Assembly (NCBI GenBank): GCA_016201575.1
Contig: JACQCN010000329.1
Location: forward strand, 1 to 17,902
Reading direction: 5' to 3'
Length of the DNA stretch: 17,902 bases
Origin: Candidatus Rokuibacteriota bacterium
Lineage (GTDB): Bacteria > Methylomirabilota > Methylomirabilia > Rokubacteriales > CSP1-6
The translations under genes were made by a program, and so were the position numbers. Below, in pieces: positions 743-8,460 of the stretch. The notes beneath the pieces are model-generated. The model saw only the letters and a program-made list of their open reading frames with translations. It ran no database searches and was not told the DNA's origin. How positions within the stretch are numbered: position 1 is the first letter of the stretch; each line of letters opens with the position of its first letter.

Positions 743-1084
743 ATGCGGGGCATCGAGGGCGAGCAGGTTCTCCTGCGGATGATCCTGAGCGAGTCGCGGA
801 CCCACGACCACCAGCCCCTCTAGCGGAAGATCGTCGACGTCCTCCGTACCGAGGGGATAGCGGGCGCGACCGTGCTCAAGGGCATCGCCGGATTCGGGCA
901 CGACCGCGACGTCCACACCATCGCGCTCGAGGTCGCGGCGCAGGGACTGCGGGTGGTCGTGGAGGTGGTGGACACGCCGGAGCGGATCGACCGCGTGTTG
1001 CCGAAGCTCGAGGCACTAACTAAGGCGCTCGGCTTGACGATCCCGCACTCGTTGCTGGTCCAGGCGGATCAGGTCATCCGTTGA
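743..1084 (+). pseudogene. DUF190 family protein with in-frame TAG
   Basis: The ATG at 743 follows a strong AAGGAGG at 731-737, and the frame runs 113 codons to TGA at 1082-1084. The product fits DUF190 (COG1993), a PII-like small soluble protein of about 110 residues. Recognisable parts are GIAGATVLKGIAGFG around residues 38-52, then a DVHTIALEV strand and VVVEVVDTPERID. Codon 27 (821-823) is TAG, just after HDHQPL where the family usually has a tyrosine (PLY); TAC to TAG is the simplest change. Homology continues in frame beyond it, so the gene is probably inactive or recently damaged. A GTG at 872 could restart translation but would yield only the C-terminal 70 residues. DUF190 genes are commonly found next to crcB fluoride channel genes, which is relevant to the fluoride operon further right. 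Confidence 0.85.
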
Positions 1085-5107: not shown

Positions 5108-5552
5108 CATGTTTGCCTTGACGAAGGCCGCCGCGGTGTTCAAGCGCGCCATGCCGGCACCGATGCCGAACGATTGCGGGCCCCAAAGCGGGGGGAACAG
5201 GTGGTCCCCTCTCGGGCCCGTCAGCCCTTGACCATCGCGCCCCGTGACAGACGGCGCACCTGGCGGCGTAGACCGCCTCCCCACGACTCTTGTCCGGCGG
5301 ACCGACGGGGTTGAGCTTCAGGAATCCGCGCCCCGGGAGCTCCCCGCCGACCGGCACGTCCCTGGACAGCCGCCAAATGTAGGCGAGGATCGCCCGCATC
5401 TCCTCGCCGTCGCGCTGCAAGGGCCGGCCGTTCATCGAGCGCTCGAAACAATCGTTGACGCGGTCCTCCAGGAGATTCACTTTCGCGTTCCGGCTCCGGT
5501 ATTCGGGAAAGACGCCCCAGATCCCGACCCACGGCGAGGAATAGGCCTTCCG
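5108..5552 (-). pseudogene. TsdA-like cytochrome c fragment, truncated at both ends and frameshifted
   Basis: On the minus strand, codons from 5552 downwards match the middle and end of a thiosulfate-dehydrogenase-like (TsdA) cytochrome c: [39 protein letters not shown], then one heme site CAVCHG at about 5255-5241. A single extra G in the run 5243-5240 then shifts the frame; the similarity resumes as RDGQGL and continues with FPPLWGPQSFGIGAGM and TAAAFVKANM until about 5108. The N-terminal half with the first heme site (normally C-x-x-C-H before DAGRK) is missing, and so is the natural C-terminus. TsdA is a periplasmic diheme enzyme joining two thiosulfates to tetrathionate. This remnant cannot be functional as read. 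The 54 nt between it and the repeat-protein gene hold nothing recognisable. Confidence 0.8.
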
Positions 5553-5797
5553 GCGGCGCTGCTGAGCGCGATCGCCGTCAGGGACGTCCCGATCGCCACC
5601 TTCATCGGCAGCCGGCCCGCCCACAGCAGCGCGGGGACGATCACGAAGCCGCCCCCGATGCCGAGAAACCCCGTGAGCAGCCCGACCCCGAAACCGACCC
5701 CGAGCATCACGGTGGGCCGGGACTCGCGGCCCCCGACCGGCTCCGACCGCACCGTCCCGATCGCGCCGCCGAAGCCGATGAGCAGAACGCGCTCCAC
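5549..5797 (-). pseudogene. TauE/SafE permease half, possibly behind a CrcB start; fused to the cytochrome fragment
   Basis: A GTG at 5797 with a good AAGGAGGG (5814-5807) opens a frame whose residues 26-83 match the second half of a TauE/SafE (sulfite exporter, DUF81) permease: [19 protein letters not shown], then a [20 protein letters not shown] segment. The similarity stops at about 5549, where a different frame takes up the TsdA-like cytochrome, so the two genes were joined by a deletion. The first 17 residues, [17 protein letters not shown], resemble the start of CrcB fluoride channels (GGxxGxxxR) more than a TauE segment; this is weak because so few residues remain. The first half of TauE is missing. 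The fragment follows the universal stress gene by 76 nt on the same strand, so it is the decayed tail of the fluoride operon. Confidence 0.65.
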
Positions 5798-5873: not shown

Positions 5874-6296
5874 CTACTTCGCCAGCAGCACGTGGCACGG
5901 CGCCAGCCGCACGATGCTCTGCGCCGTGCTGCCCATGATCCGGCCGAAGATGTTGCTGTGCCCCCGGTAGCCGATGACGAGCAGGTCGAACTTCCCTTCC
6001 TTCGCCGTGGTGACGATCGTCTCGACCTCGTGGCCCTGCCGGATCGTGGTCTCGAGCGCCACCCCGCTCAAGGCCGCCAGGTCCCGGGCCTGCTTGGTGA
6101 GCGTCCGGAAGTACTCGTCGATCTGCTCCTTGGCCGCCTTCACCTCGCTCACCGACGCGGCGTAGTGCGGCAGGTGCTCCTCCACCGAGATGCTGTGCAG
6201 CTCCGCGCCCAGCGCCCGGGACAGCTCGATGCCCTGCCGCAGCGCCTCCCGCGCGCCCTCCGACCCATCGTACGCGACCAGGATGCGTCTATACAT
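5874..6296 (-). CDS. Universal stress protein (UspA family)
   Basis: This is a single-domain, 140-residue UspA protein. It begins [17 protein letters not shown] and ends with the nucleotide-binding signature G109-x2-G112-x9-G122-S123 (GYRGHSN...GRIMGS), followed by [14 protein letters not shown]. That signature is found in the ATP-binding branch of the family. It acts in the cytoplasm and usually supports survival under stress. Its ATG lies inside the end of the antiporter gene (8-nt overlap), so the two are translationally coupled. Usp proteins are commonly encoded next to ion antiporters and can regulate them. Through the shared transcript it should be induced by fluoride via the riboswitch at 8418-8332. 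Confidence 0.93.
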
Positions 6297-7482
6297 CGCC
6301 CACCCCTCCTACCGCCGGCGCGGCCGCCGGCTCCCGCGGCTGCAGGTGCGCCGGCATGAAGAACGCGTTGGCGATGAGCGTGGGGATCACGGCGCTCCCG
6401 ATCACCGCCGCCACCAGGTGCGAGTACTGCCCCGAGGTGATGATGCCGTGGCTCAGCCCGAAGAGGGCGGAGATGGTCCCGAAGGTCAAGCCCGTGGACA
6501 TCATCAGCGTGTAGTACACCGTCTCCTGCCGCCGGTAGCGGAAGGCGTGCACCGCCGGGAACACGCCGGCCACCTTGCTGACCATCTTGGCCGCGAACAG
6601 GACGACGAAGACCATCGGCGCGGCGGCCAGCGTCGGCACCGACACGAAGGAGCCGGCGCGGATGAAATAAAACGGGGTCAGGAGCCCGAACGTGAGCGTG
6701 CGGAGCCGCCGGATCAGGACGTGGTCCTTGCCGACGGTCCCGGCCAGGAGCATGCCGATCACGTAAGCGGGCAGGACGGCCTCGCTCCCCGCCCACACGG
6801 CCACGCCGCCCATCCCGAAGAGCGCCAGCAGGATGAACTTCGTCTCCAGCTCGGACACCCGCCCCCCGTAGCGGCGGAAGAAAGGTGCGGTGACGAGCGG
6901 GAGCGCGGTGAAGACGACCGCGCAGGCCCCCACGAAGACGAGCGTGCGCAGGGTGAACGGCGCGAAGATGAGGCCGAGCGCGAGCACCGTGCCGAGATCG
7001 TTGACGAAGCAGGCGGCCAGGATCGCTTTGCCGTACTCCGTCGTGTTGAACCCGAGCTCGAGCATCACCGCGTACACTACGGCGACCGACGTCGTCGAGA
7101 GCGCGACGCCCGCGAGCCAGCTCGGCCCGACGTCCCAGCCGAGCAGGTACCGCGCCATCGCGGCGGCGCCGAGGAACGGCGCCACGAAGCCGGCGAGGCC
7201 CACCACCGCGGCTTCGCGCCACTTCACCCGGAACACCAGGGGGTCGAGCTCGGCACCGGCCAGGAACGTGAGCACGATCGCGCCCGTGCCCGCCAGGAAC
7301 GAGACCCACGCGCTCGACGAGCCGAGCGCGTTCGGGCCGACGACGATGCCGATGACGAGCTGGGCCACGGTGCCGACCACGATCTCCGAGAGGGCCGTGG
7401 AGACCCGGAGCCAGATCGCCAGGAGCGTGGCCACGAGCGCGAGCCCGACCCAGACCGCCGCGAGAAACCAGACGTCGGTCAT
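6289..7482 (-). CDS. Cation:proton antiporter (CPA/Kef-type), fluoride-riboswitch controlled
   Basis: This is an inner-membrane protein of 397 residues with about 12 hydrophobic segments in the Na+/H+ exchanger fold. It has the family hallmarks: GIVVGPNALG at 45-54, LTFLAGAELDP at 71-81, the broken-helix STTSVAVVYAV at 129-139 and the ion-site pair N161-D162 in ACFVNDLGTVLALG. Kef and NapA-like CPA2 proteins usually carry QD or DD at this place; ND is the CPA1-type, generally electroneutral, form. No C-terminal RCK/TrkA-N domain is present, so this is not a full KefB/C. The start at 7482 has a GGGAGG upstream and lies 12 nt after the DUF6062 gene. Sodium/proton antiporters are among the gene classes reported downstream of fluoride riboswitches. 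The ion carried here (Na+, K+, or fluoride-linked) is not decided by sequence. Confidence 0.88.
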   Translation of the reverse strand: MTDVWFLAAVWVGLALVATLLAIWLRVSTALSEIVVGTVAQLVIGIVVGPNALGSSSAWVSFLAGTGAIVLTFLAGAELDPLVFRVKWREAAVVGLAGFVAPFLGAAAMARYLLGWDVGPSWLAGVALSTTSVAVVYAVMLELGFNTTEYGKAILAACFVNDLGTVLALGLIFAPFTLRTLVFVGACAVVFTALPLVTAPFFRRYGGRVSELETKFILLALFGMGGVAVWAGSEAVLPAYVIGMLLAGTVGKDHVLIRRLRTLTFGLLTPFYFIRAGSFVSVPTLAAAPMVFVVLFAAKMVSKVAGVFPAVHAFRYRRQETVYYTLMMSTGLTFGTISALFGLSHGIITSGQYSHLVAAVIGSAVIPTLIANAFFMPAHLQPREPAAAPAVGGVGDV

Positions 7483-7494
7483 TCGCGCCTCCCG

Positions 7495-8304
7495 CTAAGC
7501 GGCCCCGCTGGCCGCCGTGATCTCGCCCGGCGCCCCGGAGCCCCCGTCCCGCGCGCCGTGCAGCGCGTTGCCCCAGACGGCGCGCCCGCCGGCCAGCATC
7601 TCCACCGCGCGCGCGCACGATGCCGCCTCTGCCTCGGTGAAGGGCTGGCGGTTCCGGTACTCGTGCTTGGCGACGAAGCCGCCGAGATCACGCCGGAGCG
7701 CCGCCCACTTCGCCAGCGTGCGCCCGACGAGCGCGTCGAGCCCGGGCGTGGGCGCGCCCCGCTCCAGCACCTGCAGCAGGTGGGGCGCGCAGAGCCCGTG
7801 GGACACCTCGTAGGCCCGCACCAGCTCGCGGTCGTCGACGAACTCCAGGATCGCGGCGGCGTACCGCTCCTCCGCCTCGCGACACTGCAGGCAGACGGGG
7901 CAGGCGGCGCGGCCGTGGCGCCGCCGAGCGGCCGCGGACCAGGCGGCGGGACGGCCGAGCCGCCGGAGCCGCGCGAGCCAGCCCGCGCGCGCCGGCGCGG
8001 CGCGCCGGAGGCGCCCGATCCGCTCGATCGCCACGCGGGTCAGGTCCTCGTAGATGATGGCCGCCCCGCTGACGGCACCGGGGATCTCGAGCAGCATCCA
8101 CGCGTGCCAGTTGCAGAAGCCCCACGAGGCCCGGAGCCGCCGCCGCGTATCGGGATCGGTGACCTGCTCGTAGAGCATGGCGTCGAGGTGGCGGCGGCCG
8201 CCCTCGGTCAGGCGGCGGCACACCGGGCAGCCGGGCTGCCGGCAGGCCTCGATCAGCTCGTAGAAGGCGACGAACTTCCCGGTCGCCCGATCCGGCTCGG
8301 CCAC
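7495..8304 (-). CDS. DUF6062-like protein with two CxxC...CxxH modules
   Basis: I chose the GTG at 8304 because AGGGGAGGTG (8319-8310) precedes it at normal spacing; a GTG six codons upstream lies before that site. The 269-residue protein has no signal peptide or membrane span. It contains two copies of one cysteine/histidine pattern: C26-P-V-C29 with C64-x2-H67 (GFCNWHAW), and C135-P-V-C138 with C172-x2-H175 (GLCAPHL). The spacing is 38 and 37 residues, so the protein looks like an internal duplication, each half probably binding one metal ion. FYELIEA at 14-20 and LYEQVTDPDTRRRLR at 44-58 fit DUF6062, a family without known function. It is the first gene after the fluoride riboswitch and sits 12 nt before the antiporter. 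A role in fluoride or metal stress is inferred from position only. Confidence 0.8.
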   Translation of the reverse strand: MAEPDRATGKFVAFYELIEACRQPGCPVCRRLTEGGRRHLDAMLYEQVTDPDTRRRLRASWGFCNWHAWMLLEIPGAVSGAAIIYEDLTRVAIERIGRLRRAAPARAGWLARLRRLGRPAAWSAAARRRHGRAACPVCLQCREAEERYAAAILEFVDDRELVRAYEVSHGLCAPHLLQVLERGAPTPGLDALVGRTLAKWAALRRDLGGFVAKHEYRNRQPFTEAEAASCARAVEMLAGGRAVWGNALHGARDGGSGAPGEITAASGAA

Positions 8305-8331
8305 GGCGCCACCTCCCCTCACCTGGAGGAT

Positions 8332-8366
8332 AAAAAAATCCCCTACCGATCAGCCCTCGGTAGGGG
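8332..8366 (-). terminator. Intrinsic terminator forming the riboswitch expression platform
   Basis: On the minus strand CCCCTACCGA (8366-8357) pairs perfectly with TCGGTAGGGG (8349-8340) around a 7-nt loop, and a run of seven T (8338-8332) follows. The CCCC at 8366-8363 is also the 3' strand of the aptamer helix P1. A ligand-bound aptamer would therefore block the terminator, which predicts induction by fluoride. Confidence 0.93.
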
Positions 8367-8418
8367 TCATCAGCCTCACCGGCCGGTGAGGCGGTCTCGG
8401 GCGAACCCCATCGCCCCT
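8357..8418 (-). ncRNA. Fluoride riboswitch aptamer (crcB motif)
   Basis: The minus strand carries the conserved crcB RNA blocks in order: GGGCGATGGGGTTCGCCC (8416-8399), ACCGCC (8395-8390) and GGCTGATGACCCCTACC (8375-8359). Expected pairings are all present. P1 is GGGG (8409-8406) with CCCC (8366-8363). P2 is GCCTCACC (8392-8385) with GGTGAGGC (8380-8373), capped by GGCC. The pseudoknot is GGGCGA (8416-8411) with TCGCCC (8404-8399). This class binds fluoride through magnesium ions and switches on fluoride-resistance genes. It stands directly before the DUF6062-antiporter-usp operon. Confidence 0.95.
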
Positions 8419-8432
8419 CGTCTTCTCACCCA

Positions 8433-8460
8433 ATTATCCGGGCGCGGCCGGTCAGGTCAA
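8433..8460 (-). promoter_or_regulatory. Sigma70-type promoter of the fluoride operon
   Basis: On the minus strand TTGACC (8460-8455, five of six matches to -35) and GATAAT (8438-8433, five of six to -10) are 16 nt apart. Transcription would start near 8426, about eight bases before the aptamer. The -35 box overlaps the last codons of the VOC gene. Confidence 0.8.

Follow-up and report, generated by a model that had tools for sequence, protein, structure and literature searches.

A fluoride riboswitch ahead of DUF6062, antiporter and stress-protein genes in a Rokubacterial genome, and the recurrence of DUF6062 behind such switches

Overlap between the aptamer and an intrinsic terminator has been described for the crcB motif RNA in PMC2864571. 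According to PMC11139923, Na+/H+ antiporters rank second by frequency among the gene classes behind the fluoride riboswitch; the same text states that HF enters the cell by weak-acid accumulation and lowers the cytoplasmic pH, and that cells counter this via Na+/H+ antiporters. A fluoride operon of E. cloacae FRM, as described in PMC5533749, comprises ppaC, uspA, eno, gpmA, crcB, and orf5249, and uspA in it is up 120-fold with fluoride. The riboswitch, the antiporter, and the universal stress protein (Usp) are already known parts of fluoride regulons.

The locus analyzed here lies within a stretch of 17,902 nt (the window), contig JACQCN010000329.1 of assembly GCA_016201575.1 from Candidatus Rokuibacteriota bacterium (Methylomirabilota; CSP1-6), whose genome (G000) is 77% complete. 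On the minus strand, a promoter-like box, an RF01734 aptamer, a terminator, and a Shine-Dalgarno sequence are followed by genes for a DUF6062 protein, a CPA-type cation:proton antiporter, and Usp. The aptamer (8354..8424, minus strand) matched the RF01734 covariance model over its full length (model positions 1–64) with 43.3 bits against a gathering threshold of 34 and an E-value of 3.1e-9, and it was the sole Rfam match at gathering within the window. A preliminary description made from the letters alone had read a fluoride riboswitch here and proposed a covariance-model search; that search, together with the promoter-like box, terminator, and Shine-Dalgarno sequence, bears this reading out. 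By its sequence, the RNA is a genuine fluoride-sensing switch ahead of three genes, and the order of genes given earlier also stands, with Pfam matches over cut-off for all three products.

The putative sigma-70-like promoter (TTGACC-16-GATAAT, 8433..8460, minus strand) is a consensus match only, with 10 of 12 positions against a mean of 0.0 in shuffles, and its -35 box overlaps the end of the VOC gene upstream. The intrinsic terminator (8332..8366, minus strand), representing the transcription-off form, consists of a stem at 8366-8340 followed by a U tract; it has 10 pairs and a loop of 7, overlaps the 3' end of the aptamer, and its energy of -19.9 kcal/mol (z -4.5) was equalled by 0 of 200 shuffles. 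The 5' arm of the terminator, CCCCUACC, contains CCCC, and the pseudoknot letters, read by eye from the sequence, are GGGGU in the first loop and ACCCC at the 3' end. Since the same CCCC is expected to pair in both structures, the terminator and the aptamer pseudoknot are mutually exclusive, and its position in the terminator 5' arm makes the element read as a classic transcriptional ON switch. Terminator-like hairpins at or just past the aptamer end were found in 43 of 49 over-gathering riboswitches, the window included, in a scan of our own that lacked a shuffled control.

The first gene (7495..8304, minus strand) encodes a protein of 269 aa assigned to DUF6062 (PF19538, 58.5 bits, cut-off 27). 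The likely start is the GTG at 8304, in preference to the first one at 8322, with the Shine-Dalgarno sequence AGGGGAGGTG, read from the sequence, at 8310..8319 (minus strand) and a database protein (P0001) likewise 269 aa in length. Two CxxC...CxxH modules, C26 C29 C64 H67 and C135 C138 C172 H175, were recognized. Both motifs were present in all 120 homologues listed (the best 120 of 284) and invariant across the 19 rows of alignment A2, that is, A1 minus a near duplicate (L098), a masked sequence (L095), a divergent one (L071:7844), and one with an uncertain frame (L073). Among DUF6062 members taken from the loci, the window included, 53 of 57 carried the double motif: 36 of 39 switch-linked members and 17 of the 18 examined that had no switch in the 3 kb upstream. 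By group, the switch-linked members with the motif were 14 of 14 in Methylomirabilota, 13 of 14 in Chloroflexota (14 of the 16 switch-linked members being taken in), and 9 of 11 elsewhere, where L143 and L144 are cut by contig ends. Since switch-less members have the same motif, it is not special to fluoride loci. Aligning its two halves with hhalign showed that the protein is internally duplicated (probability 96.6 and E 6.6e-10 over 65 columns, against 0.3 for the reversed control). In the AlphaFold2 model (mean pLDDT 84.7, pTM 0.79) the fold is made up of helices only, and no solved structure stood out in the structure comparison. Judged by their motif, the two modules probably form zinc-like CCCH metal sites.

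The main point going beyond the preliminary description is that DUF6062 is itself a recurrent fluoride-riboswitch gene. A DUF6062 match at E ≤ 1e-3 was counted as positive if its own strand had a switch match at E ≤ 1e-3 in the 3 kb upstream, and expected counts were computed from riboswitch density. In Methylomirabilota, 14 of 20 DUF6062 clusters were located behind a switch (10 over gathering, 4 below; 0.004 expected), with no switch upstream on the other strand and one downstream. The corresponding number for Chloroflexota was 16 of 61 clusters (9 over gathering, 7 below; about 0.03, more precisely 0.026, expected), with three switches upstream on the other strand and one downstream. Binomial tails, which ignore kinship, were 2e-48 and 3e-40, respectively. 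Both phyla were searched for DUF6062 with the Pfam model; for Chloroflexota this covered 201 genomes, and the riboswitch was searched in the 52 with a match only. A scan of other groups with two peptide patterns, which favors relatives close to the window protein, gave 11 of 26 loci behind a switch (9 over gathering, 2 below; 0.011 expected), the positives including Deltaproteobacteria/Thermodesulfobacteriota, Thermotogae, Armatimonadota, and a Nitrososphaeria archaeon, with group names as given in the record titles. Below-gathering switches make up 13 of the 41 counted. The loosest link between switch and gene is in L114 (Syntrophaceae), since a group II intron (RF02005, 4908-5132) lies between the fluoride riboswitch and DUF6062. 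Beyond the 3-kb limit, L144 (Omnitrophota) has DUF6062 3.2 kb behind a switch, and its operon also holds enolase and CrcB. Given this recurrence in distant bacterial groups and an archaeon, DUF6062 is likely a fluoride-defence protein and, with its predicted metal sites, a probable metal-binding fluoride-stress protein. No link of DUF6062 to fluoride riboswitches was found in the literature searched.

DUF6062 genes without a riboswitch within 3 kb upstream on their own strand numbered 45 of 61 in Chloroflexota, 15 of 26 in the other groups, and 6 of 20 in Methylomirabilota, and no switch was found near the members from Binatia, Entotheonella, and four archaea. In four bins of Binatia and Deltaproteobacteria (L123, L124, L128, L132), switch-less DUF6062 follows a large gene (914-931 aa), with a frame of 103 aa between the two in L128; in L124 (Binatia) this large gene codes for a molybdopterin aldehyde/xanthine dehydrogenase. 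Two other species of the window genus have the fluoride riboswitch before the antiporter but no DUF6062. At L145:5895-6257, a weak switch (22.6 bits) precedes a frame-broken DUF6062, and both seem to be decaying together.

Labels for antiporter, Usp, dynamin, MFS, and CrcB genes at the loci came from single queries or small HMMs of our own, in part checked with Pfam, and gene calls were crude. DUF6062, antiporter, Usp, and switch occurred together in 6 of 41 loci of one set, counting a DUF6062 found by the Pfam-model search (L097) and two switches below gathering (L095, L097), and in 4 of 26 loci of a further set. They were also together in 6 of 20 hand-picked loci, mostly picked for their switch, so this is not a rate. 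The order in L172, L175, and L184 is switch-antiporter-Usp-DUF6062.

A Chloroflexota genome (G236) encodes, at L167:14709-16574 on the minus strand, a fusion of 621 aa with Dynamin_N in its N-terminal half (90.2 bits) and DUF6062 in its C-terminal half (46.3 bits; cut-offs 27 and 27), with a riboswitch of 38.7 bits ahead. This fusion links DUF6062 to a membrane-type GTPase. Separate dynamin-like genes were present in the DUF6062 clusters L091, L096, L097, and L121, but no such neighbor was observed for the window operon. Dynamin-like GTPases were also observed directly behind or in line with the switch in L067, L075, L083, L091, L096, and L097, the switch matches of L096 and L097 being below gathering. 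Joint mention of dynamin and the fluoride riboswitch was not found in the literature searched.

MFS carriers were located behind fluoride riboswitches in two phyla (L070:10141-11481, L169:6616-7821, and L179:5642-6937, the last identified by our own two-sequence HMM only), and the riboswitch-linked MFS is a candidate fluoride carrier. Four fluoride riboswitches occupy 4.3 kb of L070 (G079:C6, 8048-12358), adjoining DUF6062, antiporter, MFS carrier, and Usp, respectively, as a small fluoride island. Another dense region, L167-L168 (G236:C30, Chloroflexota), packs ten switch matches (E ≤ 1e-3) into some 30 kb, several of them paired back-to-back on opposite strands; its genes, by our own HMMs, include antiporter, Usp, MFS, and two CrcB-like ones.

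The second gene of the window operon (6289..7482, minus strand) starts 12 nt after DUF6062 and encodes an antiporter of 397 aa with the motif FVNDLG (Na_H_Exchanger PF00999, 108.7 bits vs 26.2); the NCBIfam curated cut-off of the CPA2 model TIGR00932 was not reached (101.4 vs 238.3). Its nearest solved relative is NapA. The Asp of the [N/T]-D motif, which stands where NapA has DD, was kept in 34 of 35 aligned antiporter homologues from riboswitch loci; the remaining one is a fragment lacking this region, so all 34 covering homologues keep it. A single carboxylate goes with electroneutral exchange. The kept Asp and the CPA type fit cation/proton exchange and pH repair. For riboswitch-linked Na+/H+ antiporters, PMC11139923 cites its reference 67, probably Baker 2012. 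The third gene begins 8 nt before the antiporter gene ends and encodes Usp of 140 aa (5874..6296, minus strand; PF00582, 109.3 bits vs 24).

Profile searches of the window genome, 77% complete, gave no match to CrcB/Fluc (PF02537) or CLC-F (PF00654), which agrees with the earlier statement that the operon has no intact crcB or CLC-F channel gene and answers its call to look for another copy in the genome. Only the start and first 15 codons of crcB were found (5753..5797, minus strand), continuing in frame into a TauE/SafE piece. This stub follows Usp, is preceded by a ribosome-binding-like site, and is identical in 13 of 15 residues to CrcB of L077, which hit it by tblastn against the window alone with E 1.2e-4. 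In L077, which belongs to a different genus within the same family, the order is riboswitch - DUF6062 - antiporter - CrcB - DUF190. The crcB start behind Usp and this gene order suggest that the window operon probably derives from a crcB-bearing ancestor. Some 600 bases past the stub (5140-5752, minus strand) hold pieces of SoxA/TsdA-like cytochrome and TauE/SafE genes. DUF190, which adjoins crcB in L077 and in L169 follows CrcB as a fusion with CBS domains, is present 5 kb from the stub (743-1084, plus strand) with an in-frame TAG at 821-823. The break after the crcB start may reflect gene decay or deletion, or a chimeric assembly.

Of 95 Methylomirabilota genomes, 35 had the riboswitch (30 over gathering), 17 DUF6062 (16 over cut-off), 29 CrcB, and 13 CLC. 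Among the 30 genomes with an over-gathering riboswitch, Pfam searches found CrcB in four, CLC in four (two genomes being common to both sets and one CLC match a fragment), and neither in 24; at a completeness of at least 90%, 17 of 23 had neither. Two genomes given as 100% complete (G039, G087) likewise showed no CrcB or CLC. The switch and CrcB tend to exclude each other in this phylum (Fisher p 0.016, kinship uncorrected). The genes that follow the switch include antiporters from two subfamilies, DUF6062, Usp, dynamin-like GTPases, and MFS carriers.

These data bear on who removes fluoride. The preliminary description had named the antiporter or a partner elsewhere in the genome. If the antiporter itself exported fluoride (as F-/cation or F-/H+ exchange) in place of CrcB and CLC-F, the joint absence of both in those 24 genomes, and in 17 of the 23 more complete ones, would be expected; the antiporter is first behind the switch in many loci of the 41-locus set, and the window operon still has a crcB start next to it, at the place of CrcB in L077. 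The protein, however, belongs to the CPA fold family with NapA as the nearest solved chain and keeps the transport Asp in 34 of 34 homologues, and no CPA member is known to carry fluoride. Moreover, antiporter and CrcB are not simply exchangeable, since the same cluster holds both in L067, L077, and L169. Export by the antiporter is thus improbable, and this part of the earlier proposal gives way to cation/proton exchange as the better-fitting function. The partner could instead be a riboswitch-linked MFS or a CrcB in the missing genome part, the window operon only repairing damage. MFS genes behind their own switch (L070, L169, L179) or adjoining or near DUF6062 (L103, L121, L129, L130) and the 77% completeness speak for this possibility, which we entertain with some reserve: the closest match to the riboswitch-linked MFS in the window genome is only 32% identical, and the complete G039 and G087 are equally devoid of CrcB and CLC matches.

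DUF6062 might also serve stress or metal homeostasis in general and be no more than a passenger of fluoride operons. Numerous members lack a riboswitch in their vicinity, the archaeal L131, L138, L139, and L142 show no switch even at E 2, and 17 of 18 switch-less members have the same motif. Against this, DUF6062 takes first place behind a switch match in the separate loci L119, L126, L137, L140, L143, and L174, from several groups, and also behind the weaker switches of L177 and L180, which makes a passenger role rather unlikely. The broken genes within the contig's first 5.8 kb, namely the crcB stub, the TauE piece, DUF190 with its TAG, and the cytochrome gene, could suggest that the operon is a non-functional relic, decayed or misassembled. 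This is very improbable: the riboswitch, the terminator, and the reading frames of DUF6062, antiporter, and Usp are all intact, their GC3 is high (0.95-0.97), and the motifs are conserved.

We therefore favor, with good confidence, a fluoride ON-switch driving a protection operon of DUF6062, CPA antiporter, and Usp, in which DUF6062 is a dedicated fluoride-stress protein. The comparison across phyla lends good support to the fluoride-tolerance role that the preliminary description assigned to the operon. Building on the observed RNA match, terminator, gene order, and recurrence of DUF6062 behind the switch, the fluoride response, metal binding, and roles of all proteins can be predicted as follows. 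When fluoride is absent, the nascent RNA would fold the terminator and transcription would stop; when Mg-bound fluoride is present, the pseudoknot would hold CCCC, blocking the terminator, and the three genes would be made. Once HF has entered, the antiporter could bring cytoplasmic pH and the balance of cations back to normal, and Usp could act as a general stress protein. DUF6062 probably holds two metal ions and would protect or repair fluoride targets, presumably paired with a dynamin-like GTPase in some species; it may protect metal or thiol centers, bind metal-fluoride species, or serve the GTPase in membrane repair. More tentatively, DUF6062 might represent a fluoride-defence metalloprotein family of bacteria and archaea, partnered in certain lineages by dynamin-like GTPases; in Methylomirabilota/Rokubacteria it would combine with riboswitch-driven antiporters and MFS carriers to provide fluoride tolerance free of CrcB and CLC-F.

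Fluoride thus offers a first functional handle on DUF6062, a role-less family spread over many phyla. Methylomirabilota have fluoride sensors, yet most of their near-complete riboswitch genomes (17 of 23) have no recognized exporter. Both the role of DUF6062 and the apparent lack of an exporter in this lineage are directly testable, and fluoride tolerance is relevant to the bioengineering of organofluorine degradation.

Compared with the known systems, the window switch shows no essential difference from the crcB motif with terminator, having the same aptamer, pseudoknot letters, overlapping terminator, and ON logic. The operon resembles that of E. cloacae FRM in being riboswitch-led and multigene and in containing Usp; the latter operon differs in having crcB, enolase, and pyrophosphatase, and the six genes that the abstract of PMC5533749 names include neither an antiporter nor DUF6062. 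The antiporter is of the same gene class, behind the same RNA, as the known riboswitch-linked Na+/H+ antiporters, whereas in the window its operon also contains DUF6062 and lacks an intact exporter gene. The DUF6062 protein is a member of PF19538 by its score (58.5 bits over the cut-off of 27), a family to which Pfam assigns no function. Within the literature searched, what is new is the exporter-poor setting in Methylomirabilota and DUF6062 as a recurrent fluoride-regulon member across phyla.
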